64,000 bases of DNA from Phorcus lineatus (taxonomy: Eukaryota; Mollusca; Gastropoda; Trochida; Trochidae), in NCBI GenBank assembly GCA_921293015.1, contig OV121081.1, forward strand, positions 50,741,877 through 50,805,876, written 5' to 3'. The position numbers and the translations under genes were made by a program. The notes beneath the pieces are model-generated. The model was not told where the DNA came from, ran no database searches, and saw only the letters and a program-made list of their open reading frames with translations. Each line of letters begins with the position of its first letter. The stretch's first letter is position 1. Shown here one piece after another: positions 5,417-59,544 of this stretch.

Positions 5417-5879
5417 AGAGCCACTCCGTGAGTTGTTGGAGTCAAATATGGCAAGTTAATCAATGGTGTCATTCGATCGCGAAGTATCGACTGTTACCAA
5501 AAAGTATCGTTTAAAATTGGTTTTGTACAGTGACAATACGAAGGGAGAAAGTCGCAATTATGATCGAAAGCCGGACAGTGGCGTGCGTCAAACAGCCAAA
5601 CGTAATTTTAGAGACTTAATAAAAGCCGCCAGGAGGTCAGTTTGGTGTTGATAGTGTTTGTTAGTTTATATAACTAGTATCCATGTAAACTGAACGTGTG
5701 ATATCTGCCTCTGTGCATTTATAAGGCTATTTTTAGATTTTCGTGGAAAACCAGTGTTTGCCATATATATGTCTTTTGGACATGAAAAATTAAGATGTTT
5801 TGATTTTCTATCATAACATATGTCATTTTGGTTCGTAACAAAGGTGATTAATATTTTCTGAAAATCACTGAGTGACTCT
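5417..5879. mobile_element. 463 bp MITE with TTAA target duplication (copy 1)
   Basis: The element is flanked on both sides by TTAA (5,413-5,416 and 5,880-5,883). Its terminal inverted repeats are AGAGCCACTCCGTG and AGAGTCACTCAGTG (12 of 14 match). A second copy lies at 56,736-57,178 with the same termini and internal similarity (for example TCGCGAAGTATC). There is no transposase; the 62-codon open frame at 5,463-5,651 is disrupted in the second copy and is unlikely to be coding. TTAA flanks fit piggyBac- or Kolobok-mobilised MITEs; which of these is inference. Confidence 0.8.
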
Positions 5880-6140
5880 TTAAATTGCTGGTGGCTTGAT
5901 ACGAGATGTGAACGCGTGATTTACAGCTGTGAGATCCACGGGTTGAGTTATAGAAGCAAATGTTCATGTTGGTGCGTTATAGAACCTTGAGTTGGTTGAA
6001 GTTGTGATATCTCAAATCAAACATATCAAAAGTCATTATCTACCCCTCGTTTGATGAAATATCCCTTTGATATTTCGCTTACACCTGTTTTGTCATCACG
6101 TATCTAACATTGTAATTGTCTTCCAAATTCCAGGGGTGGA

Positions 6141-6163
6141 GGGGGGGGGGGGGGGGGGGGGGG
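6141..6163 (+). repeat. Uninterrupted G23 homopolymer
   Basis: A run of 23 G sits in a longer G-rich stretch from about 6,134 to 6,169. It can form a G-quadruplex on the plus strand. It may also be a place where assembly length is unreliable. Confidence 0.9.
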
Positions 6164-6169
6164 TGGAGG

Positions 6170-8150
6170 TCATAGCAAATAGCTTTATATAGACAGTCAG
6201 TTGTTCGACCGATTGACCCCTCTCACCCAGAGAGTGACATCACCAAGTAGTTTAACGCCAAAATCTACTGAAACTAACACTTGCTAATAGTGTGCAACAA
6301 GAAAAGGACGCTTCGCAAACTTGCAGTTTACCGTCTACCAGTAGGTTAACAACTTACCTACAAAACATTCAGCACGATCTCAACAACTGCATCACATTTT
6401 TTCAAATCTTCAAACTTATTCTAACCTTACATTTTGCTGAATCATATGAAGAAATATAGAAATATATAGAAATATATTTTATAGAAGTAGTTCTAATGTT
6501 TTAGAACGTGTTATCAAAATGTGAAACTAGTTCATTGGACATAACTTCGTTCTTGTTTTATAACAAACATTTGAAGTGACTGTGTCAACTCCTGTCACGG
6601 TGTAACGATATCTAAACTCAGGTGAGACCCGTTATCCGACAGGAAGATAATAAAAGAAAATAATCAGGCCAATAAATAACTAGAGAGAAGCCAATCCGTG
6701 AATCAAGTGATTTATTTGCAGTCAACACAAGACGATAACCGGTTACAGCGACAAGCTACCCGTAATCCACTCAACACGAGTTAACAACTAATTAAGGAAG
6801 TCAACAACCCATGAATAAACAAATAGACAAACTGTAGGGAATCACTCAAATATACCCCCACACGTTGTAATAACAAGATAAGCTAATGGCCGTCTTAACA
6901 AGATAGCATTCATAAGACAAATCAACACTTGGCGAATATACAAAAGAAGGGAACGGGGCCCGGGTGACCTAACAATAGGGATGTATAAAAATCAAGCACA
7001 CAGTACTTTAGATTATCCCTAATCACTACTTGAGTGAGTAAATGAATAAGAACACTAGATAAGGTATAGTAGAACTTATCAAATAATGGGAGGGAAGGTA
7101 AGGTTAAAACTGTTAGTTCTTCTTAGGAAGTGATCACATACTCCAGAAAGGTACAGAGAAAATAAGGAATATCAACCTCACCAATTCACCTCCAACGTCC
7201 CAGGTCACCCGTGACCTCTCCCCGCAAGGATCAAGCCAAGACTACTGGTACCAGAGCTCGCTCGGCTTCTTATTGGTTAAGTTCGGACGTCAGTGAAGAC
7301 AAGGCCGAAGAGATGGTAGCTTATCTAAGGATATCTTGAATCTGTGTTTCTTTGCAAAACTAAACTATCCCTAGCTACATTAATAGTTAAGGTATGGAGC
7401 CCTACAATGGCTTATTGTAAAGGGAGGAAACTCCTCTACAAGAACATATAAATATATATATCATGAGTATTGGCATATAAATGCTACATGTGATAAGGCT
7501 GATAAATGGAGAATGAAAATGACATTTGAACATATAAAAATAGCCACAGTCGGCGAATAAAGACATGAATGATAAACATAGATACATGAATGTAAAGTAC
7601 ATAATATGTACTTTCGATATATACAATAATTGATGATATTTTATTAAAGTACATTAGAGGAGAGGCGAGAAATAGGTCGCACGCTCGAACTGCGTGACAA
7701 ACTGAAAGTTTAGCAGAGTTCATGCAAAACTAAGTTGTCACTCAGTATGTCTTTCCTTATTTCATTTCCACGTGACTAGAAGGCGTTCGGACTCTACAAC
7801 GAGATTCAGGCCTACATTAACTCGTTCACGGGATGTAGAACAATTGCACGTTTTTCTCAACGAATCCTTTGGTCTAATGAGAATACCTTGTTTATTTTAA
7901 TCTGAATTGTGATTTCAGGCATATAGAATTAAAGTTCTAGTATTGAAAAGGGAATATGTTTAAAATGATACAGACGTGTTTACATCTATCTGTTGTAAGA
8001 TAATAACGTTAGAGGGTCTGGGACTGTTTTTTCAAACTTAAACATATTTCCTTTCACCACATTAGATCTACAAAGAAGAGCACTACGAATGCAGCAGAAA
8101 CTGATAAGGACATTTTATCACTCTCTCAGGTTGACCAGGTAAATTGAATT
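6170..8150. other. Non-coding stretch, no firm feature
   Basis: Apart from isolated GAACTAG-like words near 6,485-6,535 and 7,820, nothing can be named. The block 6,594-7,408 differs in texture from its surroundings (fewer repeat words, less AT-rich) and may be an inserted element, but no target duplication or terminal repeat could be shown. Confidence 0.4.
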
Positions 8151-8540
8151 GGACCTTTCTCGCAACAAGTTCGCCTGTTATGCACCTAGTTCAACATTTC
8201 TTGTTACACATTAACCATGCAGTTGCAGAAGGAGTTTTCAATTCGTTTATCGGTTATGGTACGAGTTCCTCGTTCTCTGCAACGCGTTCATCAGTAGTAA
8301 AACCAGTCACCTTTTTTCCCACAACACATTTGCAAGACTTTTCAACATACTCACATTGTGGCACTACTTCCACGTTTATCGAAATAGTTCAATTTACATT
8401 GTCTCGATTGTCTTCACCCTGAGTCACCGCTATAATTTGCTTGAAAGAATGAATGTAGTAACAGAAAACAGTTATTTATTTCAGAAACAGTTCATCAACT
8501 AGTTTAGCTTTGCTGGAACGCGTTCACATTTAGCATAACT
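8150..8540. repeat. Decayed palindrome array (reverse orientation)
   Basis: Degenerate units such as CAACGCGTTCATCAG and CAACAAGTTCGCC occur, with about 40 bp between like words. It continues the repeat theme of the foldback arms. The 92-codon frame at 8,144-8,422 runs through the repeat and shows no recognisable domain. Confidence 0.5.
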
Positions 8541-8897
8541 TGTTTTTCTTCGAAGCTGACGATACTGATTTCCATCGACACTATTTTGGAATTTTTCGAT
8601 TTAACATCTATACAACGTTTTTCTATTATATGAACTGTTAACCGTGCTAATGAAACCTTTTTGAGAACTGGTTCTAACATTTTCAGAGCTTAGAGACCTA
8701 TAGGGGATTTCGTCTGTTGTTTCGGAGGTCTCTTGTTTTCTCATAATAACCTACCAGGAGGTTTTATATTGGACAGTCGAGGCATTTTTTCATATGTATG
8801 ACCTACCCTGAGTGTGGAAGGTTTTTATATTTCAAAGTCAAAGGTTTTTCTTTTCCCCCATACTACAGTCTTTTGGAAAATTCAAAACTTGCAACCT

Positions 8898-8972
8898 TCC
8901 AAGGTGGATTCGAACCCCCAACCCTCTAAACCGTAAGCGAGCGCCCTAATCACTAGTCTTACGGGTCAGACA
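8898..8972 (-). repeat. tRNA-derived SINE head or tRNA pseudogene
   Basis: On the minus strand there is an A-box-like word TAGTGATTAGGG (8,944-8,955) and an exact B box GGTTCGAATCC (8,906-8,916). These are the internal RNA polymerase III promoter elements of tRNA genes. The arms do not fold into a convincing full cloverleaf, so a working tRNA is unlikely. The sequence down to about 8,690 could be the SINE body, but no second copy was found in the window. Confidence 0.55.
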
Positions 8973-9600
8973 GAATTCAAGGCTTAGTTTAACAATCTAA
9001 TGATTGAGGTTAAATTTTCAGTTTTAAAAAATCGGTCCAAAAGTATTTTGATGTCTAATCGCTCTTTAATTTCCATTTTTAAATGCATACAAACATTGAT
9101 AATTCATAAAAATAGTGGGACACCTTTTTACCTGCGATAAATTTATAGGATCCAAAAACGGTATCAACCACATGACTTGTCCATTGTAATTTGTACACCT
9201 TACGCCACGAAGAATACTTTCCACGTGCATTTTGTGCCATGTCAATTACAAAGAGTAACTGTTTGCTTTAAGAGGAAACTAATTTACATTGCATTTTATT
9301 CAGAATTAAAACGAAATTATGATGCTATTTAATCCAATAATGAATGTTCGACAAATTCGACGAACATAAATACTTGATATTTGACTATTTTCGTCTTTTT
9401 ATAATCACTCAATAAATATGTTTACGAACACAACAGTATGGATAAATGCTTGTGGGTTGTTAATTAATGTTTAATTACGGCTTCTCGCTTTCAGTCTTAC
9501 TTTCCACCAAGCTTTCTTTCCTCAGGTTTTGAAAACCCAAGCATAACCTCGTTATCGTGTTTTAACACTAACTTATAGTGAAACCTACAACTGTTACCGC
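8973..9600. other. AT-rich stretch, nothing identified
   Basis: No open frame, repeat or RNA signal could be supported here. Confidence 0.5.
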
Positions 9601-11200
9601 AATACTTTTGGTTACACATCAACTAGTTCGCGATTCGGTGAATAGTTACACGTTCCATAAACATCTGAAATATAGTAAATCATGAATATTTCCTATCTAA
9701 CCTGAAATTTCATTACGCATTTCTATTTTCATTTAATCTAAGACATCTTCAGTGGCGTGTTTTGGTATTTTGTTTAGGGCGCCATCAAATTAAAAACTTG
9801 AAAAATTACAAAATTATTGTATTTATAATATAACTCTTACAACTTTTCAACTCGATCGGTACTCTTAAACTTGTTCCCAAGTTGGTGAAATATGAGGAGA
9901 TAGGTCCCGGCAAATATTCATCTGAAACACATATCTGAGAAAATGTTGTAGTTTATTCTCAACAGACGTACAGCATGATGAAGCTACAATACTACAACGC
10001 GTTCAAGCTTGCATCAACTAGTTCTCGCTTTGCAGAACGTTTTCCTCATTTCCTCTACTAGTGACATGTCCGTCACGCTGTTTTTTTCGAGGGTGCCTCT
10101 TACTTACTGATAGCGTATGCCTTTTTATTCGATCGCAACTTTGTAACTGACTGAGAAAAAGTTAAAAAGTTTCGTGAACTAGTTCCAAAAATCTAGAACG
10201 CGTTCAGACTTTGTACAACTAGTTCGTTTCATTAAATTATTCTCGAGTTGTTGAAAAGTGTCAGGAGGTACTTGAAAATGAAACTATTTAATGCATTTCC
10301 AATTTTTCATTTAGTACATTTTCATGTACAACAATGTACAAGTCTACAACGTGTTAGAACTCGACAACGCGATCACAGTCTGTGTCAACTCGTTCACGCG
10401 TTGCAGAACTAGTTGCATGTTTTCCATGATGAGCGCACCTCCTGTTGAATAAATAATTGAGTATCTTCCTGATGACCTTGCCCTAATGATAGCTTTTTTT
10501 ACATATGGTTGTCTTAATATTTTGGTATTCTGTGGATACATCTCTCCTTTTGTCCTACAACTGTTCAACTAGCTCGGCGAGACGATGAACGTGTTCTCAA
10601 GAGCGTGAACTAGTTGTTAACTAGTTGTAAACCAGTTTTGAACTAGTTGTTGAAAAGTCGGAACGAGTTGTTGAAAAATCGGAACGAGTTCTTCCTCTGG
10701 TCGTATTGCAGATATAAATCAATAATTATTTCATTTGTCTATGAAATAACACGAAACCTACCTGTGCCTTGATGTCAAATACGGAAAGCGTTTAGAGTCT
10801 TGCGAACTACACTGTAGTTGTAAAAAGTCAGAACGCGTTATTGACATGTACAAGTTCTAGAAGTGTTGATTATCGGGTGACTTGACAGCAAATCATATTG
10901 ATAGAACATTACGAGCAAAAACATGTACGTGATCTAATGTAAATAGAAAACCGTGCCAGTAAAAAATTAAGTTGAATTTCGTGTTTCACCTCTTCATTTG
11001 TCATACAACTGTTCTACTATTTCGGTAAGACGATGAATTTTGTTCGCAAGAGCGTGAACTAGTTGTGAACTAGTTGTTGAAAGTCTGTACGCGTTGTAGA
11101 ATTTTGATACTCTTGTTGAGAGCAAGGACTGCGTTGAGGATAGCTTACATGAGTTGGGAGTTTCAGAATTTGACCTACATGTTTAGAGCGGAACGAGTTT
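9600..11200. repeat. Mosaic of palindrome words and ~390-450 bp units
   Basis: GAACTAGTT and GAACGCGTT words occur at 10,000-10,050, 10,170-10,230 and 10,570-10,700. From about 10,555 a longer unit begins (CTACAACTGTTCAACTAG, then GGCGAGACGATGAAC, CCTTGATGTCAAA, GTACGTGATCTAATGTAAA). It starts again at about 11,003. This unit is the same as the tandem one at 26,160-28,860. Words such as GAACTAGTTGT followed directly by GAACTAGTTGTTG show one-turn (11 bp) as well as two-turn (21 bp) spacing. Confidence 0.65.
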
Positions 11201-13480: not shown

Positions 13481-13687
13481 TCTGCGTCTAGCAAAGAGTT
13501 GGCAAAGTGGACGTTTTTTGTATGATGCACGAGTGGAAGTTAGATATCTGCAGATTGGCTATATCTGAATCTAAGTTTTAAAAATGATTTATATGTTTGA
13601 TGAATGGAACGACTTGTAGAAGTTAGATCTGAATTTCGGGAACGTGACAGGAGTTTAAAGAAAATTTATTGGAAATTAAAACCTATG

Positions 13688-14056
13688 TGCCTTTTTGGGT
13701 TTTCAACTTCTTTGCATTTTTATTTTTACCCGTTTCCATGGAAACGTAACATAGGATTTCTTTTCCGGAGCACAACTCCAAAACGGTGAGACCTATCTCG
13801 ACGAAACTTGGTATGTGCAACGGGCAACCATGCGGAGATGTGCCTTTTGGGGTTTTCAACGTCTTTGCATTTTTATTTTTACCCGTTTCCATGGAAATGT
13901 AACATAGGATTTCTTTTCCGGAGCACAACTCCAAAACGGTGAGACCTATCTCGACGAAACTTGGTATGTGCAACGGGCAACCATGCGGAGATGTGCCTTT
14001 TGGGGTTTTCAACGTCTTTGCTTTTTTATTTTTACCAGTTTCCATGGAAACGTAAC
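13688..14056. repeat. 153 bp tandem repeat, 2.4 copies
   Basis: Units start at 13,688, 13,841 and 13,994 (spacing exactly 153 bp) and contain CCGTTTCCATGGAAACG and CTCGACGAAACTTGG. Because 153 is 51 codons, a minus-strand frame stays open through all copies (13,683-14,045) and repeats its protein. The translation is not a recognised domain, and the frame is best explained by the repeat length. Confidence 0.85.
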
Positions 14057-14563
14057 AGAACCGAAGACACTAGATTAATAATTAATTAATCTTCAAGGTA
14101 TTAGCTTTATAAAAATCTCACCCATCTTCAATAGTAATTAAAAATTTACCTGTGACAAATCAAACTTGGTAGGAGAAAATACTTTCATATCGTTGCATTT
14201 CATCTTGCAATCAAAACAAGTTTTGCAAAAGTTGAAAAAGTTCCCCTAAGAAAGAACTATAGTTGACTCAAGCTTGATAATGATGAGTTGGACTGTGTGG
14301 AAGATTTGGAAACTAGACGTGGATATTCAGCTGTAATAAATGTATGTCTTTTGATACAGGAGAGTCGATAAATCTGTGTGAAAACAATCTTCACAATTAC
14401 TGTCGAACAATCGGGCTCAATAAACGTTGAACTTGTTCATCGGCGAGACAAATAGTTGTTGATTTTATTAAATTTTGGCGGATGATACTTTAACTTTGCA
14501 GAATATGTACCTGGCTGTATGATTTGAAATTCATCATTCGTAAGAAATACCAGTTAGAAAATG

Positions 14564-14752
14564 TGGAACGAGTTGTGTAACTGGCGAACGTGTTTCGGGA
14601 AGTGTGAACTAGTTCTACAACTGGCGAACGTGTTGCGGGAAGTTTGAACTAGTTCTACAACTGGTGAACGCGTTGTTGAACAAATCTAACTAGTTCTACA
14701 ACTGGCGAAAGTGTTGCGGGAAGTAAGAACTAGTTCTACAACTGGTTCCGAA
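14564..14752. repeat. Clean GAACNNGTT array
   Basis: Four or more 40-41 bp units alternate GAACTAGTTC-type (TA centre) and GAACGTGTT or GAACGCGTT (CG-type centre) words, linked by TACAACTGGCGAAC-type spacers. Confidence 0.8.
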
Positions 14753-16319: not shown

Positions 16320-16627
16320 GGAACGAGTTGTGTAACTGGCGAACGTGTTTCGGGAAGTTTGAACTAGTTCTACAACTGGTGAACGCGTTGTTGAAAAAAT
16401 CGAAATAGTTCTACAACTGGTGAACGTGTTGCGGGAAGTTTGAACTAGTTCTACAACTGGTGAACGCGTTCTTGAAAAAATCGAACTAGTTCTACAACTG
16501 GCGAACGTGTTGCAGGAAGTTTGAACTAGTTGTACAACTGGTGAACGCGTTGTTGAAAAAATCGAACTAGTTCTACAACTGGTGAACGCGTTGTTGAAAA
16601 AATCTAACAAGTTCTACAACTGGCGAA
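16320..16627. repeat. Best-preserved 20/21 bp palindrome array
   Basis: GAAC-type words start at 16,321, 16,341, 16,361, 16,381, 16,402, 16,422, 16,442, 16,462, 16,483, 16,503, 16,523, 16,543, 16,564, 16,584, 16,605 and 16,625: every step is 20 or 21 bp. For most of the array, words with a TA centre (GAACTAGTT) alternate with words centred on CG or GT (GAACGCGTT, GAACGTGTT). The repeating composite is therefore 40-41 bp, and 81 bp at the next level. The minus-strand frame at 16,263-16,610 is repetitive and not called as a gene. Confidence 0.9.
16618..16627 (+). repeat. 5' target-site duplication of the LINE
   Basis: AACTGGCGAA here is repeated at 21,228-21,237 on the other side of the LINE. 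The array itself contains this word often, so the duplication is supported mainly by its position exactly at both junctions. Confidence 0.65.
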
Positions 16628-16628
16628 A

Positions 16629-16907
16629 TCAAAGATCTTTATTAATGACGATCTTACTAAAGAAAGAGCTCGAATAGCCGCTGACGTAAGGAAATTAGTG
16701 GTTACCAGAAAACTGTCCGGGTCATGGGTGCGAGATGGAATAATCTTCGCCAAGAAGCTAGACGACCATGTCAGCCTTATTACAAAAAGACATCAATTTG
16801 ACAAATTAATTGAGTCTCTTAAACTCAGACTCCGCCTGAAAGTGTCCCAGGAGCAGAGGAGAATGGTGGAATTCACGGATGTCGACGACAGTGATGTGGA
16901 AGATTAG
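16629..16907 (+). pseudogene. LINE ORF1 protein, C-terminal remnant
   Basis: The frame enters open at the LINE's 5' junction and ends in TAG at 16,905-16,907 (92 codons). It reads KIFINDDLTKERARIA, then LSGSWVRDGIIF, then an acidic tail (DVDDSDVED). This resembles the C-terminal domain of L1-type ORF1 nucleic-acid chaperones (the pattern FINENLTPERA... then WTRDGRI). In such elements the protein packages the LINE RNA. The N-terminal coiled coil and RRM are missing because the element is truncated here. It lies in the same frame as ORF2, about 750 bp upstream of it. Confidence 0.7.
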
Positions 16908-16973
16908 TCTTTAAACACATGTTGACTCTTACACGTGAGTTTGTTTACAAACATAAGTGAGTAACAGCCCTTC

Positions 16974-17018
16974 GCTCTGATTGGTTTGTTCGACGCTGTC
17001 ATAATCCAATCACAGAGT
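16974..17018 (+). other. Hairpin in the LINE inter-ORF region
   Basis: CTCTGATTGG and CCAATCACAGAG form an inverted repeat with a loop of about 23 bp. The two stems also read as CCAAT-box sequences. It sits just after the ORF1 stop. The role is unknown; promoter or RNA structure are both possible. The rest of 16,908-17,657 shows no gene. Confidence 0.5.
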
Positions 17019-17672
17019 AGAGCGTCGCCGCCGACCCCGCTGCCTCGCGGTGCACGTGTACCGCTAGGAGTGTTTTGTGTTGTGAAACTGTTACATAACG
17101 ATGATGATGCGCTATAAGCAGGACTGGTAGCCTTGTAGTGTGAATTATTTCTTTTTGAATGGGAGTACTCAAACAATTACTTGTTTTATTTTGCCACCTC
17201 ATATTGTCTATATGATCTAAGTAACAGATATTTCGATTTTACTGATATTGTTCTTGGTGATATAACAAATGGGACTTTGATTGTTTATCTTTTTGTATTT
17301 TTGTTTTTATTTTTGGGATATTTTGTTTTTCTCTCTCCATGATATATTTGAAAAGCTTTCAAGTTAGTCGAAATCTTTTCTCGACTTGTTTTATCAGAAG
17401 ACCACTGATGGTGGGCTATGATTTGATTTATTTCTTTTTTCTTTTTTTTGTTATGTTCTCTTTTCCAAACAGTTTTGTGGAAATAGTGAAAAGCAAAGAC
17501 TTCTATCTCATATCGTGTGTGACAAACAGAATCACAAATGAATTGGTTAATGCTTCAATTAGGCTAGTTCTTTTTGACATTCATAGACTCGTAACGTCAT
17601 GTGTATACTCATTCATTCAGGTGACAAAGATGCCCCAATTTTCTGCTTTATTTATGTTTGATAAATTGTTTG

Positions 17673-20600
17673 ATGGGAGTTGATGTAGACCTATATCGAC
17701 AGAGAATTGGGGTGTTTCACGGTAAAGTTCATAGTTCTATAAAGGCCAAAATTGACCTCAATACATATTTCCTTGTATTATTCTTCACTTCTATGGGTGT
17801 CAGGGGTATACAAGTATTTCTTATGTTGTTGATATGCTGTGGTGATGTGCATCCAAACCCTGGACCCATTATTCCAAACAATAAACTTGATTTTAAGATT
17901 ATCCACTTAAATGTGCGTAGCTTAAAGGATAAGATCGATATCATTAGTCATGAATTCAAGGATTATGAAGTTATTAGTATAACAGAAACATGGTTGCACT
18001 CTGATATCTTAGATGAGGATATTAAGATACCGGGATTTCATTTACCTTTTAGACAGGATAGATTAACTCGAGGTGGAGGGGTAGCAGTTTATGTAAGAGA
18101 AAACATCTATGTAAAACGTATGGAAGATCTCTCGGTTATGGGCTTAGAAGCACTATGGGTTAAAATAAGTTGCAAAAACAAACACTCCTTAATCGGTACG
18201 TTTTATCGTGCTGATAAGAGTAATCACTATTGGGATCTCATCGATATGTCAATAGGAAATGCATCTGATCTAGATTTAGATATGACAATTGTAGGAGATT
18301 TTAACATTGATTACCTTAGTGTCCGCAAACAGCGCTTAGTTGATCTTCAAACAAGATATGGCCTTAGACAAATTATAAGTGAACCAACAAGGATAACAGA
18401 ATACTCACGGACTCTGATAGATTTGATATTTGTTTCTAATTATGCAAGTGTGAGCTCTTCGGGCGTCCTTGACCCCGTGTGTAGTGACCATTGTCCAGTC
18501 TATCTTAGTTTGAAATATCATAAGCCTTGTAATGTTACATTTAAAAGGAAAATATATAATTATTCCCAAATAGATATCGAAGGCTTAATTTCCCACCTCC
18601 GTGAAGTTGATTGGGATACTACTCTAAATGTCGACGATATTGACATTCTAATAGAGGAATTTACGGAAACCATTTCAGGAGTTTGTGATAAATTCATTCC
18701 TAATAAGATAATTACTGTCAGAAACGAAGACAAGCCATGGATGAATTCTAAAATACGTAGACTTATAAGAAAACGAAATCGTAAACATAAACTTGCTAAG
18801 AAAAGAAAATTACCCAGTGATTGGGGAGTGTTTAGAAGTACAAGAAATAAGGTTATATCAGAAATAAAAAGGGCAAAAGAACAGTATTATATGAAATTAG
18901 ATAATGTGATTAACGTGCATAGTCAGAACAAGAAATGGTGGCAATTAATAAAACATTATCTTAAGAAAACAGAAAATTCATTATCTTTTCCATCTATCTT
19001 TCATGAAAATGTAATTTATGATGAACCTACATCAATTGCTAATATTCTAAATGAGTTTTTCGTAAATCAATCAATAGTTGAAGACCCATTACGCCCTCTC
19101 CCATCCCCGTGTATTAAAACATCAAACTGTTTAGATAGTATTGAATTAACACAGAACGATGTTCAAGACGTATTACTTTCTCTAGATGTACGAAAAGCAT
19201 CGGGCCCTGATGGTATTGGTAATAAATTCCTTAAGCTTGCTGCTAGACTTCTATCTTATCCTCTTACTTTAGCTTTTAATAAATCTTTGAACTTAGCTGT
19301 ATTTCCCAAAGTATGGAAGATCGCTTCTGTTATACCCATCCATAAGAAAGATAGTGTTAATGAGTGCAGCAATTACAGACCAGTTTCTCTTACATGTTGT
19401 TTATCTAAGGTGTTTGAAAAATGTGTTCACAAATATGTTTTTAATTATTTTAGAGAGAATAACCTCATTAGTACACTACAATCTGGCTTTATTCCTGGAG
19501 ATTCAACAACCTACCAGTTAGTAGATCTCTATAACTTTATTTCAAGTGCTATGGACAAAGGTAAAGAAGTAAGAGCAGTGTTTTGTGATATTAGTAAGGC
19601 TTTTGATAAAGTTTGGCATAAGGGACTATCTATAAGTTACAATCCCTTGGAATTAGTGGAAAATTACTAGAATGGTTTAACAGTTATCTTAATGAGAGAG
19701 TTCAGAAAGTAGTTATAAATGGATATAATTCAAAGTATAGATCAGTTTCAGCAGGCGTCCCACAAGGGTCGGTACTTGGACCATTATTGTTTCTTGTTTA
19801 TATAAACGACCTTGTAGAAAATATAGACTGCAATATAAGACTTTTTGCAGATGACACTTCAATCTATGTCATAATTGATGATCCTGTTCAAGACGCTGCG
19901 CGCCTGAATAGAGATTTAGAGTTGATTTCTAGTTGGGCCCAGAAATGGCAGGTAAAATTTAATCCCTCGAAGACTGAAACTGTACACTTTAGTAGAAAAC
20001 GCTCTTCAGGTCCTTTTCCAAAATTATATATGCAAAATTCTCCCATAAATGAAGTAACTGAACATAAACATCTAGGCCTCTGGTTTCAAAAAGACGCAAA
20101 TTGGAATGTACAAATAGATTCTTTATCCGATAAAGTTTCACCTATGATAAATTGTTTAAGAAGTTTTAAATATCGATTATCAAGAAAGACGCTAACAACT
20201 ATGTATAAATCATTTATTATGCCATTATTTGATTATTGTAGTTATATTTGGGATAGTTGTACAGTAAATCAGGCAACAATGCTTGACAATTTACAACTTG
20301 ATGCACTTAGGACAATATGTGGGGCTACTAGGGGAACAAGTCATAATAAATTATATAAAGAAACTAATTTCTTACCGCTGGTAGAAAGAAGACGAATACA
20401 GAAATTGACTTTATTCTATAAAATGGTAAATAAAAGAACACCAGATTATTTAAACAGTCTTGTGCCAGAATCTGTTTCTGAAGGAAACCCCTATGCTCTA
20501 AGAAACTCACCAAATTTACAAAAAATACACGTAAGAACATCTTCTTACGCAAAATCATTCTTACCAAATTCTGTAGAACTTTGGAATTCTCTACCTGAAG

Positions 20601-21001
20601 ATATAAGACAAATACAGTCGGTAAACGAATTCAAAAATAAAATTACACCTAATTATAAAACTCCTTTTGGGTTTGATATAAATACTGGAAACAGGTTTTG
20701 TCAAATTCTGCATTGCAGACTTAGATTAGAATGCAGTGACTTAAATGCACATAAAGTGAAAAGATTCATATCAGATGATCCATCATGCAGTTGTGGTGCT
20801 CCCTATGAAGACACCATTCATTATCTTTTTGTCTGTCCAAACTATACTACCATAAGAGGCACTTCATTTTATTTCAAATATGGTTATAACATGAATGATG
20901 CTATGTATGGGAACCTTAAACTATCAGAATCTGTAAATCTTAGCATTATCAACTCTGTACATGATTTTATTACCGCATCAAAACGATTTACTCTATTTTG
21001 A
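17673..21001 (+). pseudogene. LINE ORF2: 2A-like motif, AP-endonuclease, reverse transcriptase (frameshifted)
   Basis: The first in-frame ATG is at 17,673, although the frame is open from 17,658. A 2A-like motif GDVHPNPGP lies at 17,841-17,867, preceded by a hydrophobic stretch (FLMLLICC). The endonuclease follows: HLNVRSL, ITETWL, GDFN (18,294-18,305) and CSDHCPVYL (near 18,480). The reverse transcriptase has KASGPDG, NYRPVSL, FCDISKAFDKVWH, then GVPQGSVLGP and the catalytic FADD at 19,844-19,855. The C-terminus carries a Cys/His cluster CSCGAPYEDTIHYLFVC. A one-base shift at about 19,625-19,632 breaks the frame just after KVWHKGL; the second half is open to the TGA at 20,999-21,001. All catalytic motifs seen are intact, so this looks young. 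The enzyme nicks target DNA and copies the LINE RNA at the nick (known for the family). Confidence 0.92.
17841..17867 (+). other. 2A-like ribosome-skipping motif
   Basis: The residues GDVHPNPGP match the core of 2A peptides (consensus D-V/I-E-x-N-P-G-P), except that the usual Glu is His. A leucine-rich run sits directly before it, as in known 2A sequences. APE-type LINEs of marine animals are known to carry 2A-like sequences at the start of ORF2. Whether this His variant skips is not known from sequence. Confidence 0.7.
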
Positions 21002-21227
21002 GTTTTAAGTTGTATATTCTTGTCCTTTATTGAACTAACTCACATTGGAATTAGAATGATTATATACATGCGCATATTGTGTTTTTGTGTCTGTTATTAT
21101 ACATATGTTTGCAAGACCCTATGTACGTCGCATATATTATGTTGTTATGGAGAGGCATTAATATAAGCCATTGGCTTGTTTGCCAATCCATTTTCTGTAT
21201 ATTTATAGAAATAAATATGTTTAAAAT

Positions 21228-21237
21228 AACTGGCGAA
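21228..21237 (+). repeat. 3' target-site duplication of the LINE
   Basis: AACTGGCGAA is the partner of 16,618-16,627. Directly after it the interrupted palindrome array resumes. Confidence 0.65.
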
Positions 21238-26050: not shown

Positions 26051-28870
26051 AAATGACATGACAGCATATTGATAGAATATTATGAGGAAAAACATGTACC
26101 TGATCTAGTAAAAATCGAAAACTGTGTCGGAAAGTTTAGTTGAATTCCATGATACATCTCTCCTTTTGCCAAACAACTGTTCAACTAGTTTGGCGAGACG
26201 ATGAACTAGTTCGGTGAACTAGTTGAGAACTAGTTGTTGAAAAGTCGGAACGCGTTCTGCCTCTGGTCGTATTGCTGATTTAAATCAGTCATGATTAATT
26301 TGTCTATGAAATAACAGGAAACCTACATGTACCTTGATGTCAAAGGGGGAATGAGTTTAGAGTCTTGCGAACTAGTTGTAAAAAGTCAAAACGCGTTCTA
26401 GACATTTGCAACTAGTTCTAGAAATGTTGACAATCGGGTAACTTGAAAGCAAATCATATCGAGAGAATATTACGAGCAAAAAGATGTACGTGATCTAATG
26501 TAAAATCGAAAACTGTGTCAGTAAAAATTAAGTTAAATTCCGTGATACACCTCTCCTTTTGTTCTACAACTGTTCTTTTCGGCGAGACAACAAACTCATT
26601 TAAATGAAATCTATATGCTCCACTACATTACCGAAATTAGTCCAGTGAGATGTATAACCTGCGTAACGGAGAGGAGCAATATTATATTTTATTCAATGAC
26701 ATTGGCGGGACGATGAACTTGTTCACAAGAGCTTGAAATAGTTGTAAACTACTTGTGAACTACTTGTGAACTTCTTGTGAACTAGTTGTTGAAAAGTCGG
26801 AACGAGTTGTTGAGAAGTCGGAACAAGTTCAACCTCTGGTCGTATTACAGAATCATGTTTCATTTGTCTATGAAATAACAGGGAACCTACATGTACCTTG
26901 ATGTCAAATACAGAATGAGTTTAGAGTCTTAGGAACTAGTTGTAAAAAGTCAGAATGCGTGACATGTACAACTAGTTCTAGAAATGCTGATAATCGGGTA
27001 ACTTGACAGCATATCATATCGAGAGAAAATTATGACCAAAAACATTTACGTGATCTAATGTAAAATCGATAACTGTGTCAGTAAAAATTAAGTTGATTTC
27101 AGTGATACACCTCTCCTCTTGTCCTACAACTGTTCAACTAGTTCGGCGAGACGATGAACTAGTTCGCAAGAGCGTGAACTAGTTGTTGAAAAGTCGGAAC
27201 GAGTTCTACCTCTGGTCGTACAGCAAATTTAAATCAATCATGTTTCATTTGTCTATGAAATAACAGGAGTCCTACATGTACCTTGATGTCAAAGGGGGAA
27301 TGAGTTTAGAGTCTTGCGAACTAGTTGTAAAAAGTCAAAACGCGTTCTAGACATTTGCAACTAGTTCTAGAAATGTTGTTAATTGGGTAACTTGAAAGCA
27401 AATCATATCGAGAGAATATTACGAGCAAAAAGATGTACATGATCTAATGTAAAATCGAAAACTGTGTCAGCAAAAATTAAGTTGAATCCCGTGATACACT
27501 TCTCCTTTTATCCTACAACTGTTCGGCGAGACAACAATCTCATTCAAATGCTCCACTACATTACCGAAAATTTCAGACTGTTTTCCGAATGTCGAACTGC
27601 CTAAATTTCCGAATGAATGTATTGTATGTACTTTCAATCTACCCCAGCTTAGTTTGGTGGACAAAAAAGTCAAATCGAAGCTATGGAGTTATCTTTCGCA
27701 AAGCAAACTCTGCATACCTCAACGTTATCCTTTAGTAGACGGTACTAAATCAAAATGCGTCTTCTGGAAACAGATACGTTGAATAAAAGTTTCGTCTTTA
27801 GTTTGTAGTAATCGTTTAATAATTTTTAATTTCGGGAAAAAATTATATCATAAACATGCTGAAAAAAGAATATCCCCAAAACATGTGCAAATACCATTAA
27901 GAACTTTCTTGATGATTATATATTAGTCACTTGCGACGTTTATATGCAAATGAGATTGACCCCAGTTTCGTCAATGACTGACAGGTTATAAATAACTCTG
28001 CTGTATGAGTAATCGTAAATGGAGTGAGAAAAACTATCTCAACTTCATTTCCGTAATATCATAATGTTTTAATAGTGTCTCAAACTCATGTTCGATCATG
28101 ATGTAGATCATTGAGTGGCACGCATTATGATTGTATGTAGGTATCTGCTGCAAGCCAATGAGAGTTACAGGGCAGAAGTTAACCTGACGGCTTGAGTAAA
28201 AGAGCCAAGTGAGTTGTATAACCTGCGTAACGTAGAGCAGCAATAATATATTTTATTCAATGAGATTGGCGGGAAGATGAACTTGTTCTCAAGAGCGTGA
28301 ACTAGTTGTTGAAAAGTCGCAACGAGTTGTTGAAAAGTCGGAACGAGTTCTACCCCTGGTCGTATTGCACATTTAAATGAATCATGTTTCATTTTTCTGT
28401 GAAAAAACAGGAACCTACACATACCTTGATGTCAAATACAGAATGAGTTTAGAGTCTTGTCCTAGAAATGTTGATAATCGGGTAACTTGACAGCAAATCA
28501 TATTGAGAGAATATTACGAGCAAAAACATTTACGTGATCTAATGTAAAATCCTACAACTGTTCAACTAGTTCGGCGAGACGATGAACTAGTTCGCAAGAG
28601 CGTGAACTAGTTGTGAACTAGTTGTTGAAAAGTCGGAACGAGTTCTACCTCTGGTCGTATTGCAGATTTAAATCAATCAATCATGTTTCATTTGTCTATG
28701 AAATAACAGGAATCCTACATGTACCTTGATGTCAAATGGGGAATGAGTTAAAATCGAGACATTTACAACTAGTTCTAGAAATGTTGAACTAGTTCTCGAA
28801 TCCTTAAACGAGTTATTTTGGTATTCATTTTTTCCAGTCCAAGTGATACGAAATCGAGTTTGTTGAATGT
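26050..28870. repeat. Tandem ~392 bp units carrying palindrome words
   Basis: Unit starts (ACAACTGTTC followed by GGCGAGAC) lie at about 26,169, 26,562, 27,121, 27,512 and 28,551. The two uninterrupted steps are 393 and 391 bp; the others contain insertions. Each unit has GGCGAGACGATGAAC, GAACTAGTTGTTGAAAAGTC, GGAACGAGTT, CTCTGGTCGTATTGC, CCTTGATGTCAAA and GATCTAATGTAAAATCG. The same unit occurs at 10,555-11,100. Short frames in it are not genes. Confidence 0.8.
27568..28205. other. ~640 bp insertion in a 392 bp-type unit
   Basis: The sequence around CTCCACTACATTACCGAAA (27,550) should run straight into GTGAGNTGTATAACCTGCG, as it does at 26,620-26,660. Instead about 640 bp intervenes. No coding potential or terminal repeat was recognised, so its nature is open. 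Confidence 0.5.
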
Positions 28871-31697: not shown

Positions 31698-31747
31698 GAA
31701 CGCGTTCATAGGCTCTAGAACGCGTTCATAGACTTTAGAACGCGTTC
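31698..31747. repeat. Three GAACGCGTTC palindromes exactly 20 bp apart
   Basis: GAACGCGTTC starts at 31,698, 31,718 and 31,738, joined by ATAGGCTCTA and ATAGACTTTA. It is the last clean occurrence of the palindrome theme; the receptor gene region begins about 1.2 kb further on. Confidence 0.9.
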
Positions 31748-31749
31748 GG

Positions 31750-32934
31750 CTTAATATTTTCTCTATATAAACTGAAATGTCACCTTAGGGGCTCGATAGG
31801 AATAAACTCTCGGCCGGTGCAGGGGGACCAGCCATTGAGATGGCGAAATAATTCTACAGTTTCAGAAATGTCCGTTGTTAAATCAGATTCTGTGAGAGCT
31901 ATTTTCTAACACGACCAGTAAATGGCATCTACGAGGGTAAATTGGCTGGTTCCTTCTCGAATTCCACATTCGCAATTTTTTTTTACAACAGTGGCAACCA
32001 GTAATGTCAAGCCCACGTGTGACGGATGTTTGACTGATAAGCGAGTTGTAAGAGGGCTAAGGAAAGCTTATGACATTTTGAAAGACATTTGATCTCTTTC
32101 TTGCTGTTGAGCGATAAATTCATTTGCATAATGGTGCAGCTCAATTTGTTGCAAATTTGTATATTCGGAGCAATAGAACTTTTTAAAACACATAGTATGT
32201 GTATATTTATTTTAAAGAAATGACTTCAAAATGTATTTAGTTCATGAAGGTAAAAACTTAAAACCAACCTGTTTTTAAAGGCCAACAGAGTATTGTATTA
32301 GAGTCAAATTTGTCAAACTACATAAATGATATTAAATCATCGTGAAGGATTGGTTGTTTCTGAAAACCACAATCTTAGAGCGTAACAGTTCAGATTAGCT
32401 AGGCCTTGTTCATTGCAATGCGCAACCGCTACTTTTAAACTCTGTCCTAAATCGAGCTATTTTCGGTCTTCTGGCGGATTTACCTTGCGGCAAAATGCTG
32501 TAAACGTGAATTTCCTTGCAATATTTCAGCCAATGAAAACACCAAATGTATAGATAACCTATTTGTTGTAACCGACATCTACGTAATGATGCATTCGCTA
32601 AAGAAGGCAACCTTTTTCTCTAAATAAAGATTCGAGGGAAGGGTACATTCGAATAAAGTGTTCGAAGAATAAAGAAATAACTGAGGCTTCTTGAATGAAA
32701 TGGCATCGCTGATTGCACTTTTGAGTTTTATTGCATCCGACAGGCTTAAACATATCTAGGCCGAGAAACATATCAAAATCATACATTTCATTAAAAACTA
32801 CATTTTAGAATATCAAAAGGTAATAGGTGAAACTAATTATTGCCGACGTGTGAATTTGAAAACCCTAAACATTCCTTTTGTTTAAAATTTTTGATATAAA
32901 TAAAACTAAGCAAATATACGTTACCAACTGAAGG
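31750..32934. other. No further receptor exon recognised
   Basis: This stretch lies downstream of the last exon found in the receptor gene. It was read on the minus strand for a membrane-spanning or terminal exon and none was convincing. Short minus-strand frames (32,410-32,610; 32,598-32,786) have no recognisable domain. Confidence 0.4.
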
Positions 32935-32967: not shown

Positions 32968-35900
32968 AAGAAGTCATTCATTAGTTTGTTTGCTTTAGTG
33001 ATTAGTGTTTAGCAACAGAGTCGGCCTTATCCGTCGCAAAGGGGCGAAAGGAGAAGTAAATCCTCACTTTGTTTGTTTCAGCTATATATTTTTTGGTATG
33101 AAAAAAACTATAAGTAAACAATTATACATTACCAGCTGAAGGAGGCCCTGTTGGTTTTGGCGACTCTCCTGAAAATACAAGAAGTAAATCCTCAGTATAC
33201 TCGCCATAGTGCTTAGTGATCTGAATCAACGTAAAACAATCCTTACTTTGTTTTATAGCCTTATATTTTTTTGGTATGAACAAAACTATAAGTAAACAAT
33301 TATACATTACCAGCTGAAGGAGGCCCTGTTGGTTTTGGTGACTCTCCTGAAAATACAAGAAGTAAATCCTCAGTATGCTCGCCATAGTGCTTAGTGATCT
33401 GAATCAACGTAAAACAATCCTTACTTTGTTTGCTTTAGCTTTATATTTTTTTGGTATGAACAGAACTATAAGTAAACAATTATACATTACCAGCTGAAGG
33501 AGGCCCTGTTGGTTTTGGTGACTCTCCTGAAAATACAAGAAGTAAATCCTCAGTATGCTCGCCATAGTGCTTAGTGATCTGAATCAACGTAAAACAATCC
33601 TTACTTTGTTTGCTTAAGCTTTATATTTTTTTTGGTATGAACAGAACTATAAGTAAACAATTATACATTACCAGCTGAAGGAGGCCCTGTTGGTTTTGGT
33701 GACTCTCCTGAAAATACAAGAAGTAAATCCTCAGTATGCTCGCCATAGTGCTTAGTGATCTGAATCAACGTGAAAACAAGATGACAGAGTCGGCTTTATC
33801 CCCCGCCAAATGGGACAAGTTGAAAATATATTGAACAATTATTTTGAAGCTGTATTTATGATCAACCCCTACAATAACTCACATTTCAGTTGAATAGAGT
33901 CAGATGCTATGCTATTAATTGGGGGTGAATTCAAATTCATTGTTCCATGTCCTTACTTACAATGGGCTCAGCGTTATGGTTTTCAAGTTTTGTAACCTGC
34001 CTTTCCATGGAAAGAGCCAAAATTAAATTCATATATTAAAAAAGCCGTACATTGTACATGAAGGTGAGGTGAGGTGAGTTGGGGTTTAACGCCACTTTCA
34101 AGACTATTTCACTTATATTAGTATAGTATTATTGCAGGAAGAAAGCCGCGAGCGTCGGCTGGAATTAGCAAACCATGGGTGGTACCACGCTGAAATTTAG
34201 TGTAGCATTGCACCCAAACCTGACTGCGTGTAGAACAGTTCTCTACTGCAGACAAAGTTGCCGAGCGAGATTCGAATCACAGACGTCTTAATTCGAAGCC
34301 GAACGCGCTAACCACTGCACTATCCCGCCCCTTGTACATGAACACTTGGTGAATGTTTTATGAATGAAGTGTCGTTGAACTAGGTTTTATAATTCTGATA
34401 AGAAAGTCCAATGGGGATAAAATCGATCGTCGATTAAATGTTGAACTCTGGCCTAGTTTCGACTACATTAAACTAATCATATAAATACAATGTTAACTGC
34501 TATATACTTTCGGTACAATAGGCGCCTTTCCAACCACTTTGACACCCGCCAGCACAAATTCCGGACATAGAATCACAGACCGTATTTGATTTACAAGTCT
34601 TTGAACATCTTGACGCACAGTTCTGTCCAAACGTCCCCGGAGTGCATTCTGAAAAAACGTGCCATGAGATAAGATCTAATTTGTTCGCAAATGATATCAG
34701 AGTATCATTTAATGGAAGATAATATGCAAATGGGGTACTCAAATAACCATGATGAAGAAAAAAATGTCATGATTGTTTTACGATATTGTTAACTGATACA
34801 ATATTCTACATTTTCGTGTAAACCAATATGAGAGGGTCGGCTACATATCAGATTACCACGTACGTTGATTTTTTTATCAAAACAACAAAACACATTTATA
34901 ATGACTGGAAAGATTTTATTTCAGAGTTACTTCCAGAATCAAATCACTTGATTATTCACTCAAAATATTTTTGACAAATAAGTTCAATTGAAACAAAAAG
35001 GTTATCACAGTTATTCACAAAATCATAAACACATAATGATATAAACTAATATTTTTCAAATGCGAGAACAAGTGTCTGATTACCACTTACGTATTGAACA
35101 GTTAGTTCCCTTCCACCCACTTGGACATCCGTCTGGGCAACTTCCGGTTTCCATGTCGCAAGTACTGTTTCTGCAGTTACAAGTAGACTGACAGTCAACT
35201 CCAAAGGTTCCTGGCAAACATCCTAGAACAAACCATTGTAGAAAAATTGTATCGCCACTGAAACAGTTGTTAAATAGTGTAAAAGGCCAACTCTTTTCGA
35301 ACTTAGAACATATTTGTGCATCTTATTCATGAATTAACGAATCCCTTGAAAGTTTCAAATGCTCAGATTCCAAATTTTAGAACGGCATACACGAAAAGAA
35401 GATATTTGATCACTTCTTAACCCTTACCTTGTATCCTGGGGTCTGAGAGGCCCGGATGCCTATTTTCATTACCATATATCAGAAACAAATTAGAAGTTTT
35501 AGCTGAAATTTTATGTATTCCTGAAGTGCTGTAATCACTTGTCTCCTAAAAAGTTAAGTCTCAAAATTTTAATCAATTAACGTTTTATGACAACTTTTAA
35601 TTTTCATCAGCGTTAAGTGCATACGTGGGCTTGAAAGGCCCGGGACATTGATTGCTAAGATATTAAATTCTAGATCAAAATAGCCAAGGTACCTAGCTTA
35701 CTGCAGTTTCTTGTCACATCAAAATGAGTAAACGGAGGAACAGCCATGATGATTTGAACGGGATATCGGCTTCAGATACTCGTATCAGAGAACCAATAAT
35801 CTCAGATTATACTTGATACGACAGCGATGTTATTTCACGCAGTTCAAGTGATGACAGATCACCCAGTGATACAGAGAAAGAAAGCAGTGCTGATGGTAAT

Positions 35901-47900: not shown

Positions 47901-50900
47901 CACTTGGACAATAAAGAAGTTGACTATCGATAAAAACTCGTTGGTATTCATCTTGCTACCTGTGTCCATCTCTTGCTATAACCTCATTGTTTGTCTACCG
48001 ATGTACATCACTTACTTCTGGCTTGAATTCCTATTTTACGCCTTCAACGATCGGCCAAATATTTTGCGTAATTGCTTCTGTTTATTGTTTTTCTTGATAA
48101 TTATATATATGTTCACCCCTTTACGTCTAATCAGTTTCCTTCGACAACAACAAAAAGATGTTGGAACATTCTCAGAATTAAGAGTGAGTGAGTGAGTGAG
48201 TTGGGGGTTTAACGTGCTTTGAACAATATTTCAGTTATTAAACACGTCCATCCAAAAGAGAGTGGACAGATCAGGGAGAAAGGGATCGAAAGGATGAGGT
48301 AAAAGACGGAAAGAAAGGCATAGTGAGAGATAGACAACAGGTTTTAGAAGGACTCAAATTTAGTCTGGCTTCTACCCGTCGACCTGTCCAGCTTGGGTGT
48401 CCCTACCAGGAACATGTAAGCTCCAGCTGGCATAGCTCTTGGGGTCTCTGAAGCACGCAAACCACCACACCACGATAAGGTATTGAGAATTAAGAAGTTG
48501 TCCTTCATTACATTCGTTTTGATCTGATTTCTAACTTTTTAAGACTTTACATAAAGGAGTTAAGTCTTCACCTTCACGCTTGTCGTAAACGAGAGGTTGA
48601 TGAAAATATTGCCAGTAAAACTAATTTCCACAGGTTATAAGCCGCCAATTTTGCACACTTACACAATTAGAAAAGTTTGGTAGTGTAAGGTCGGATAGGT
48701 AAAAACGTGTAGGTCTGGATAGAAAAGTGTAAGGTATGGTAGTAGAAAAGGAGAACAACCATTTATTGTGAAAATCAGGATGTTTCGAAGTACATTTTTA
48801 TGCTCATTCCTGCATCGGTTGTTTTCCAGAAATATCTTGCTTTATATATGTATACCGCTTTTAAATGCGCTTCAAAAAGTAGTGTAGGTTGGTGAAGGGA
48901 TGAGAGAAGTAGTATAGTTTGGTGTAGGGTAGTGTATTTCAGGGTAGCGTAATGTTTAAAGATCGACTAAAATGACCCATTGCAACTTTCGTGATTCATA
49001 AGATATGTATTCTAATTTGCCAGTAACTTGAGTTTAAATTTTGAAATCGACCGATAAACAACTTCAATACGGCTTTTTCGAATCACCAGCTAATTAGCAC
49101 CAGTGAACAGAAATGAACTGGCCCGTGGTCACTGAGGCGTGTCCTACCGCGTGACGTGCTAGTCGGCGGAAGTATAACCTCCTTAATGAAAAAACAACAG
49201 GACATCTCACAGTCTTAACAACTGTTTAAACATATCTAAAGTCATGAAAAAATTGATGTTACATGTACATTATTTTTATTGTTCCAAGCGAAAGACAGTG
49301 TTTTAATATGATGCTATGCGCACTATTCCATAGCATGTGTACATCAATTAAGACGTCTGCCAAATGTTGTCACAACAATCAGACTGGTTTAAATAGTCTT
49401 ATTTTTTATGACACACAGGTGGCCGTTTTGTAATCCTATCGCATTCAATTTCAATTTTTGATTTAATGGTCTCTAATTATACCTTTACTTAGTTTATTGT
49501 CACGGCGTCCAGTCATTTGAACCAATGGACTTGTAGAATATATACTCAACCAATAAATTAAGAGAAGGAGATTTGGCTCATGCACTTCTACGGACATTTA
49601 AAAAAGTACATGTTGTGAACGGGTACCAACATTCTTTGGGATTACATAGGATGTTTCTAACTGTTGCGCCAGGTATGTTTTCATGTCATTGATTGTTCAA
49701 TACTTGGAAGACAGAGATATTGCAACACGGTGTGAGATATTATACTAGATAAGAATAAAATATGTGTTAGTTTAATACAAACGAATAATCCACTAAATAC
49801 TAAGTTGTCATGAAAGTGGAGTGAAACAAAATTATTTTTTCTATAGTAAACATTAAAAAAAGTTTCTACATTCTCTCCCGTTTATTAAAAAAACCTTCAT
49901 TTTTTCGAGACAATTTAGAACTTCATATCGATAAATACATGTTGTAAAACTACGTGATATCCCGTAGTAATGGATCTCTCACCGACCAAGTTCTTAAACT
50001 TTTTCATATAAACCCACCCCAGAAAACCGCATCCAAGGATTTTCACAGTAAAATCAAGGTGGATTTGACGACTGAGAGGGAAAGTTGATATCATGAAGCA
50101 GTTACATATCGTATTTTGGAATTCTTTTGGTCACGCTATTGCCTCTATTTTGCTGTGGAATTAGCTTAAAAATACAGAGAAAATCAAAGGGCTAGACTTT
50201 CAGCTGACGACTAGCACGTCACACTGGGCGTGGCTTCGAGTCATGCTTCGGTGATTTTGTCTAAGCGTTCGCCAGTCTCATTAGGCGGTTATCCAAAACA
50301 GGGGTATAAAAGGTCTCATAGTAGTTGAATTAAAGCGTATACTACTACTTTATCACTTTTTGGCTCTATTGAATCTTATAAGTGAAACGAATACAGATAC
50401 TAATTTGTAATAATCAAATTCATGCGTTACTTCTCCTCTTTAATAGGATAGGGTCATATAATGTAGCAAGGGGTAGAGTGAGCAAGGGTAGTTTAAGGTA
50501 GGTTAGAATAGTTTGATGTACGGTAGTTGGATCGGATAGGGTAATGTAGTGTAGGATGTTATAAGCTCGGGTAGAATAGGGTAAATGCAATGTTGAATGT
50601 GAAGAGCGAGGAAGAAATAGTTTAGCTAGGGTGAAATAGATTGAAATAGGTTAGTATAAAGTGCTATAGTATTTCATAGTAACCCAGGATCGGTTAGTAG
50701 TAGGTCTTACGCCCTTGATATTCCCCTAAAGACAGCAAGTATTAAGCAGTTATTTCGTTTAGCAATCATTCTGAAGGTCATCAAGGTCAACAAACGGATT
50801 AGTGCCGCCTTTCACAGTCACCACCATTTCTCTGTGTGCTCTTCAATTATCAAAGGAAGAAATAGTTTTAGCTAGGGTGAAATAGATTGAAATAGGTTAG

Positions 50901-59235: not shown

Positions 59236-59544
59236 CTGTAATGAGAAAAACGTTTACTTTCACAATTTGCATGATGTGACGTAATGTGATGTGATCTATT
59301 ATCTTTGACATCACGCTCTACAGTCCTTTTAACATTAGTTGTTGAATATCAAATGATGACTTAAGTATGCAACATAAAATTATTTTAAAACTTCTAAACC
59401 AGCAAATTGCAGAGACGAGCAAGTGTAGTGTAATACAATCTGTTTGTGACAAAAAATACAAGTACAGGGGTCTTCATGAGCACTTGTAAGATTAAAAGAC
59501 AGAGCAGTGCAGAGGAGTACATTTATCACGGGAAGATTATACCC

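Follow-up and report, generated by a model that had tools for sequence, protein, structure and literature searches.

The window, a 64,000-bp stretch of the Phorcus lineatus genome (C1:50741877-50805876 of 958 Mb), contains at positions 16321 to 16614 an unstranded array of 15 consecutive short words, organized in a tandem unit of 81 bp. For this array and for the counts of 184, 172, and 12 words given below, a word was defined as a match to at least seven of the eight fixed positions of GAACNNGTTC, a palindrome of the form GAAC-NN-GTTC. The words start at 16321, 16341, 16361, 16381, 16402, 16422, 16442, 16462, 16483, 16503, 16523, 16543, 16564, 16584, and 16605, and all 14 intervals between them are 20 or 21 bp. 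The original prediction had placed 16 starts at this spacing between 16,321 and 16,625; fifteen of these (16321 to 16605) were recovered, while the place near 16625 holds no word and lies at the edge of a LINE (non-LTR retrotransposon). This insertion within the array (16628 to 21227, plus strand) carries reverse transcriptase and endonuclease reading frames, is flanked on both sides by the 10-bp duplication AACTGGCGAA (16618-16627 and 21228-21237), and is foreign to the element proper. The array restarts at 21235, past the LINE, and extends to 21466 in chains of 8 and 3 words. A second array with a chain of 9 words (14566-14745), an inverted relative of the reported array with a chain of 7 words (2817-2959), and a related repeat block in which the same words stand between other linkers, many at 20/21 bp (26054-28795), are likewise unstranded features of the window. 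Tandem repeats with longer units are found at 13685-14057 (153 bp), 33059-33779 (180 bp), and 50609-51346 (246 bp), and relatives of the 153-bp unit are present in other copies of the giant element described below.

The window contains 184 matches to GAACNNGTTC with at most one mismatch, compared with about 24 in five Markov simulations, and 205 matches to GAACNNGTT on both strands, compared with an average of 9.9 over 100 shuffles (sd, 3.6; maximum, 20). The central pair of the 184 words is GC in 31 cases and AT in 5. Distances between window words peak at 20/21, 40/41, 60/61, 81, 101, and 121/122 bp, which bears out the predicted locking of the words at 20/21 bp. An 11-bp period, predicted for 10,600-10,640, is present at 10608-10651, but one-turn phasing between separate chains is weak. 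The words are unevenly distributed: 172 of the 184 fall within positions 1 to 31798, and the remaining 32,202 bp hold 12. All 77 pairs of neighboring words 20/21 bp apart lie in the former part and none in the latter.

The words end near 31.8 kb because the right end of a giant mobile element falls there. The window copy of this element spans C1:50719517-50773674 (54,158 bp) and has perfect 23-bp terminal inverted repeats (TIRs) at both ends, with the sequence TATCGAGCCCCTAAGGTGACATT and the form TATCGAG...CTCGATA, as well as a 6-bp target duplication, GGAATA, on either side. The copy begins upstream of the window, and its right part occupies window positions 1 to 31798 on the plus strand, colinear with copies on C13, on C11, and at C1:30.2 Mb. 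The right TIR lies at 31776-31798 as a perfect match to TATCGAGCCCCTAAGGTGACATT on the minus strand, followed by the right GGAATA (31799-31804, unstranded); the left one immediately precedes C1:50719517. A comparison of four loci revealed sharp borders common to all. The exact symmetry of the ends is limited to 23 bp, the left and right interiors differ, and inverted modules are found inside.

A 19-mer taken from the array matches 184 places in the genome (86 forward and 98 reverse; 0 for the reversed control), and among the 100 matches listed the places are clustered, with several clusters alike in layout. Searching the genome for the element ends with up to 2 mismatches, a setting too strict for relatives, short or long, whose ends have diverged further, yielded 36 ends, 28 of them perfect (reversed control, 0). 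These ends sort into 11 pairs 35.9 to 76.3 kb apart, 1 inner end in the copy at C1:48.9 Mb, and 13 unpaired ends. The paired copies are C1:30176589-30217089 (40.5 kb), C1:48923956-48960820 (36.9 kb), the window copy C1:50719517-50773674 (54.2 kb), C5:8988525-9064818 (76.3 kb), C11:44530691-44574312 (43.6 kb), C12:23590073-23632186 (42.1 kb), C13:39701874-39746983 (45.1 kb), C17:16336175-16394615 (58.4 kb), C25:8940605-8976472 (35.9 kb), C25:30609819-30648175 (38.4 kb), and C25:42302131-42346222 (44.1 kb). In 10 of the 11 pairs, the 6-bp duplications on the two sides are identical (GATAGC, AATATG, GGAATA, TCAAAG, CATGAG, ATTAAC, ATAGAT, ATTATC, GTTATT, and CTAAAG), the exception being the C25:30.6 Mb pair (GATTTC versus AAGGAG). 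The paired TIRs and the 6-bp duplications therefore identify the array-bearing object as a TIR-bearing DNA transposon family, in which the recognized pairs are all giant.

Several copies have been rearranged. In the C1:48.9 Mb copy, 70 bp of inverted left end directly follow the right end (C1:48960640-48960900), and the CATGAG duplication fits the outer border only, which suggests past self-insertion or a rearrangement of the ends. Approximately 550 bp past the right end of the C11 copy, a further stretch of element sequence begins that is incomplete and rearranged (C11:44574865-44580000). Among the matches listed, the 19-mer occurs 13 times at C1:41583768-41584839, mostly at 81-bp intervals, which makes this place a greatly enlarged version of the array. 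The inner sequence of four unpaired TIRs (C7:6907540, C13:46260656, C15:26940854, and C9:39294731) leaves the family after approximately 23 to 60 bp, and these ends would be either products of deletion or parts of related elements. The sequence TATCGAGCCCCTGAGTTGACGTT, or a variant of it differing by one letter, resembles a TIR and lies inside the element at C13:39708161-39708183 and at like places in 5 other paired copies; situated a few kilobases from the left end, it may be what remains of the end of a related element. A separate small family ended by TATCGAGCCCCTGAGTTGACGTT was considered and rejected on the placement of all 11 hits (up to 2 mismatches): six lie within paired copies, one approximately 7 kb from an unpaired end on C32, one approximately 3.5 kb from an unpaired end on C15, and three are variants of the main TIR. 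An exact scan of viral contigs with the 19-mer, in which records near the source genome may be left out, gave 0 matches. We recognized no description of this element in the surveyed titles and abstract starts of the open literature.

No transposase was recognized in a Pfam scan of 84 open reading frames (ORFs) of the window and 144 of the 173 ORFs of at least 56 amino acids in the C13 copy (29 were excluded by hand), a set from which a spliced gene with short exons could escape. The reverse transcriptase and endonuclease hits among the window ORFs belong to the LINE, as judged by the positions of the long frames, and the THAP and teneurin-type EGF hits were placed by eye in frames outside the element; DUF594 and RasGAP_C were also hit. 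The C13 copy gave two weak hits, IRF-2BP1_2 (E = 0.0005) and DBB (E = 0.0082), each in 1 of the 144 ORFs, which may be due to chance. Gene-like frames outside the element lie at window positions 34503-35322 (EGF-type), 52568-52861 (THAP-type), and 58982-59317 (LDL-receptor-like, by eye only). Upstream of the window on C1, in the window copy, an open frame of 1,132 residues (positions 5837-9232 of locus L009) has a LINE-like endonuclease and reverse transcriptase by eye, and this frame is apparently a second LINE insertion in this copy. The C17 copy was sampled (40 of 58 kb) for an autonomous version, and its extra DNA consists of inserts of approximately 6 kb nearly without words. With no transposase recognized in the scanned ORFs, the element appears to be non-autonomous, a call that we make with reserve because a spliced gene with short exons could have escaped the scan. 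The suggestion that the ligand of the words is the element's own transposase finds no backing in these ORFs.

The 20/21-bp spacing predicted to recur in other genomic copies does so in the C13 copy, which contains 226 words, with 88 neighbors at 20 or 21 bp. In this copy, pairs of words 40 to 42 bp apart were taken and the middle position was scored, so that the middle words were not picked by their own match. The middle position matched at least 6 of the 8 fixed letters in 42 of 49 cases and never did so at control offsets. The middle words are on average 71% alike pairwise, while the first linkers of 27 triples with 40-bp spacing are 34% alike, compared with 27% after shuffling. Linkers of 20-bp steps (n = 61) have a likeness of 0.353 (shuffled, 0.267) and those of 21-bp steps (n = 27) one of 0.407 (shuffled, 0.264), so the linkers retain some kinship above chance. 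They are mostly dissimilar nonetheless, with the 88 linkers forming 34 clusters at 70% identity, and the 20/21-bp lattice is maintained between them. This agrees with the expectation that slippage alone is insufficient, because slippage amplifies the 81-bp unit and does not explain four like words between unlike linkers inside it. The predicted alternation of TA with other centers also holds in the C13 copy for words with 6 or more of the 8 fixed letters, among which 87 of 128 steps alternate, compared with 62.7 ± 5.5 in shuffles (reached in 0 of 2,000), and in chains of no more than 4 words 61 of 93 steps do, compared with 45.9 (2 of 2,000). Separate chains, too, are in phase with one another near 20 to 21 bp (R, 0.30 to 0.34; 0.31 at 20.5 bp), and less so at a spacing of one turn, for which R falls to 0.19 at 10.5 bp; these values come from 155 non-independent pairs. 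An earlier test of linker diversity, in which 66 mutually dissimilar linkers were followed by a further word at +20/21 in roughly one-third to one-half of cases, was replaced by the middle-word test and the third-copy test described below because neutral divergence at 75 to 80% identity could give the same result. A comparison of words with their flanks among paralogues of the C13 copy (0.918 versus 0.79; other enriched gapped words reach up to 0.94) was set aside because picking words by match biases the comparison.

Words also recur at set distances from both tips. On the left, CAACTAGTTG, GAACGCGTTC, and GAATGCGTTC begin at positions 27, 48, and 79, and on the right three GAACGCGTTC words begin at positions 52, 72, and 92 counted from the tip. 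These places are constant across the paired copies, with single-letter changes in a few of them (C11, C17, and C25:8.9 Mb). In the window, the three right-tip words lie 20 bp apart at 31698-31747 (unstranded) and occupy the same places in the right ends of all 11 paired copies, with one letter changed in C17.

Divergence was compared among the copies on C13, C11, C1 (the window copy), and C1:30.2 Mb (C1b). For each pair, the words were located in a third copy, which kept their choice from biasing the pair toward identity. In every one of the 12 four-copy combinations, the rate of change is lower at the eight fixed positions than in the linkers (Fisher P values of 9e-6 to 0.058); combinations share copies, and the P values are therefore not to be multiplied. 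Between C13 and C1, with words taken from C11, changes affect 18 of 1,684 word positions (1.1%), 85 of 3,208 linker positions (2.6%), 775 of 31,752 positions in the rest of the element (2.4%), and 12 of 422 center positions (2.8%). Across the four copies, fixed word positions thus change at approximately half the linker rate and the central NN shows no slowdown. The direction is the same in all 12 combinations after chains of more than 4 words are dropped. Correction for trinucleotide context in seven combinations left words at 0.44 to 0.63 of the expected changes, compared with 0.81 to 1.55 for centers and 0.71 to 1.55 for linkers. In 8 kb of a more divergent C25 copy, words are below linkers in 5 of 5 combinations (P = 0.005 to 0.052). 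The five combinations with C17 have the same direction, but C13-C17 is not significant (P = 0.87), with equal rates in words (13 of 1,056) and linkers (28 of 2,066) and a lower rate in the rest (125 of 24,475); in the other four, words are below linkers (P = 0.0014 to 0.05) and not significantly below the rest. In C13-C1b, C1-C17, and C1b-C17, the word rate is likewise not significantly below that of the remaining element sequence. The phasing idea therefore withstands the comparison of palindrome and linker conservation that had been proposed to refute it: the palindromes are the better conserved in the 12 four-copy combinations, with the context control in agreement, and not in C13-C17.

Collectively, the results point to a palindrome under constraint whose two-turn spacing is likewise constrained; it is concentrated in a mobile element and occurs at both tips. 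The idea of a phased platform for a dimeric protein is favored by the lattice, by the slower change of the palindromes, and by the spacing in the C13 copy, while the equal rates in C13-C17, the weak one-turn phasing, and the failure to recognize a binding protein or a transposase in the scanned ORFs speak against it. On balance, we consider it somewhat probable that this giant and apparently non-autonomous transposon bears phased binding sites of a dimeric protein, which would probably come from a partner in trans. The simplest reading is cooperative binding, with both the protein and its role inferred. A dimer would bind each word, and adjacent dimers, two turns apart on the same face of the DNA, would bind cooperatively; the 41-bp pair of words, one with a TA center and the next with another center, may be the unit of assembly. 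The protein would most likely be supplied in trans by an autonomous partner element, as its transposase or an accessory factor. Coating could mark the element for its partner and help two tips approximately 45 kb apart to meet, or could hold chromatin open, so that the array would act in end pairing, anti-silencing, or both. Copies that lose words would transpose less and the words would be kept, while linkers would drift and arrays would expand and shrink by slippage.

An alternative that we regard as distinctly less probable is a neutral minisatellite, in which the words are functionless relics of a 20/21- or 41-bp tandem repeat that slippage and unequal exchange carried through the element. 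In line with it are the genuine tandem arrays (units of 40/41 and 81 bp), the 81-bp-spaced places in the long array at C1:41.58 Mb, the linker kinship above shuffled values, and the lack of word constraint in C13-C17. It does not readily account for words changing at approximately half the linker rate in all 12 four-copy combinations, with no slowing of the NN center inside the same word, a difference with which the trinucleotide-context control agrees, or for a lattice maintained between 34 linker clusters. Sites for a host factor, for example of the p53 family, used by the element for expression or chromatin opening, would be a less likely explanation still. The p53-family consensus is RRRCWWGYYY, with AT as the favored center. 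The TA-centered GAACTAGTTC matches this half-site, and the 10-bp gap sets half-sites on one face, but GC centers (31 of 184) fall outside WW and the favored AT center is rare (5 of 184); moreover, the scanned ORFs contain no recognized transcribed gene of the element for such sites to serve. We think it very improbable that the words form a nucleosome- or chromatin-positioning array setting the rotational position of nucleosomes over the element. The spacing near two helical turns would suit such a role, but a constrained eight-letter palindrome is more specific than rotational positioning requires, and the one-turn phasing between chains is weak relative to that at 20.5 bp.

Binding of a dimeric protein in trans could be carried further, to a more speculative proposal that we hold to be rather doubtful: the words may serve as a docking track on which a protein filament or scaffold assembles around a gene-less transposon of 36 to 76 kb, joins its 23-bp tips over tens of kilobases, and lifts the size limit that usually applies to cut-and-paste transposition (length-independent synapsis encoded in cis). 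If this were true, the finding that no recognized TIR pair of the 11 is under 35.9 kb would imply that mobility depends on the track itself. More generally, such a family, with no recognized genes and with a constrained, helically phased palindrome as its most conspicuous recurring feature, would be a concrete starting point for learning how DNA transposons of this size are mobilized or evade silencing. From the word and its two-turn spacing, one would expect a specific dimeric protein, which may be retrievable with a synthetic 81-bp probe.

The termini and the target site duplications (TSDs) make IS3EU/GingerRoot a candidate affiliation, for which TA..TA termini and 6-bp TSDs are reported (PMC10045372), both of which are found in this element. 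It differs in having no recognized IS3EU transposase in the scanned ORFs and in its 36- to 76-kb size with motif arrays; the fungal TET+ IS3EU families are described with ends of TAYGG..CCRTA (PMC12730594), unlike the TATCG ends here. Polinton/Maverick elements share giant size (15 to 25 kb and up to 40 kb according to PMC6431247) and a 6-bp TSD (PMC10045372), but they have 5 to 10 ORFs, including an integrase, none of which was recognized in the ORFs scanned, and an identity with them was rejected for want of such genes in those ORFs. Rehavkus, as portrayed in PMC6446971, likewise has a minisatellite within a TIR transposon; its 9-bp TSDs and PHD-finger transposase contrast with 6-bp TSDs in 10 of 11 pairs and no recognized transposase here, and identity was rejected on TSD length. 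Two known systems offer parallels to the proposed binding. For Galileo, a P superfamily element with Foldback-like TIRs, PMC3688188 describes a transposase for which the repeats within the long TIRs provide multiple THAP sites, and many short protein-binding motifs inside an element, the first near the tip, are common to both, as predicted sites in our case; the present element has an exact TIR of 23 bp and a motif spread throughout its length, and no THAP transposase was recognized inside. In Arabidopsis VANDAL21, the motif arrays recognized by VANC21 are dense and evolve through tandem duplication (PMC5735166). The likeness lies in a dense short motif in non-coding transposon DNA with tandem duplication, and within the window 172 words lie inside the element compared with 12 outside; the VANC21 motif is not described in that account as a phased palindrome, and VANDAL21 encodes VANC, for which no counterpart was recognized here. 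If the phased sites do bind a dimeric protein, they would be the counterpart of the VANC motif arrays and of the multiple THAP sites of Galileo, extended over a whole giant element.
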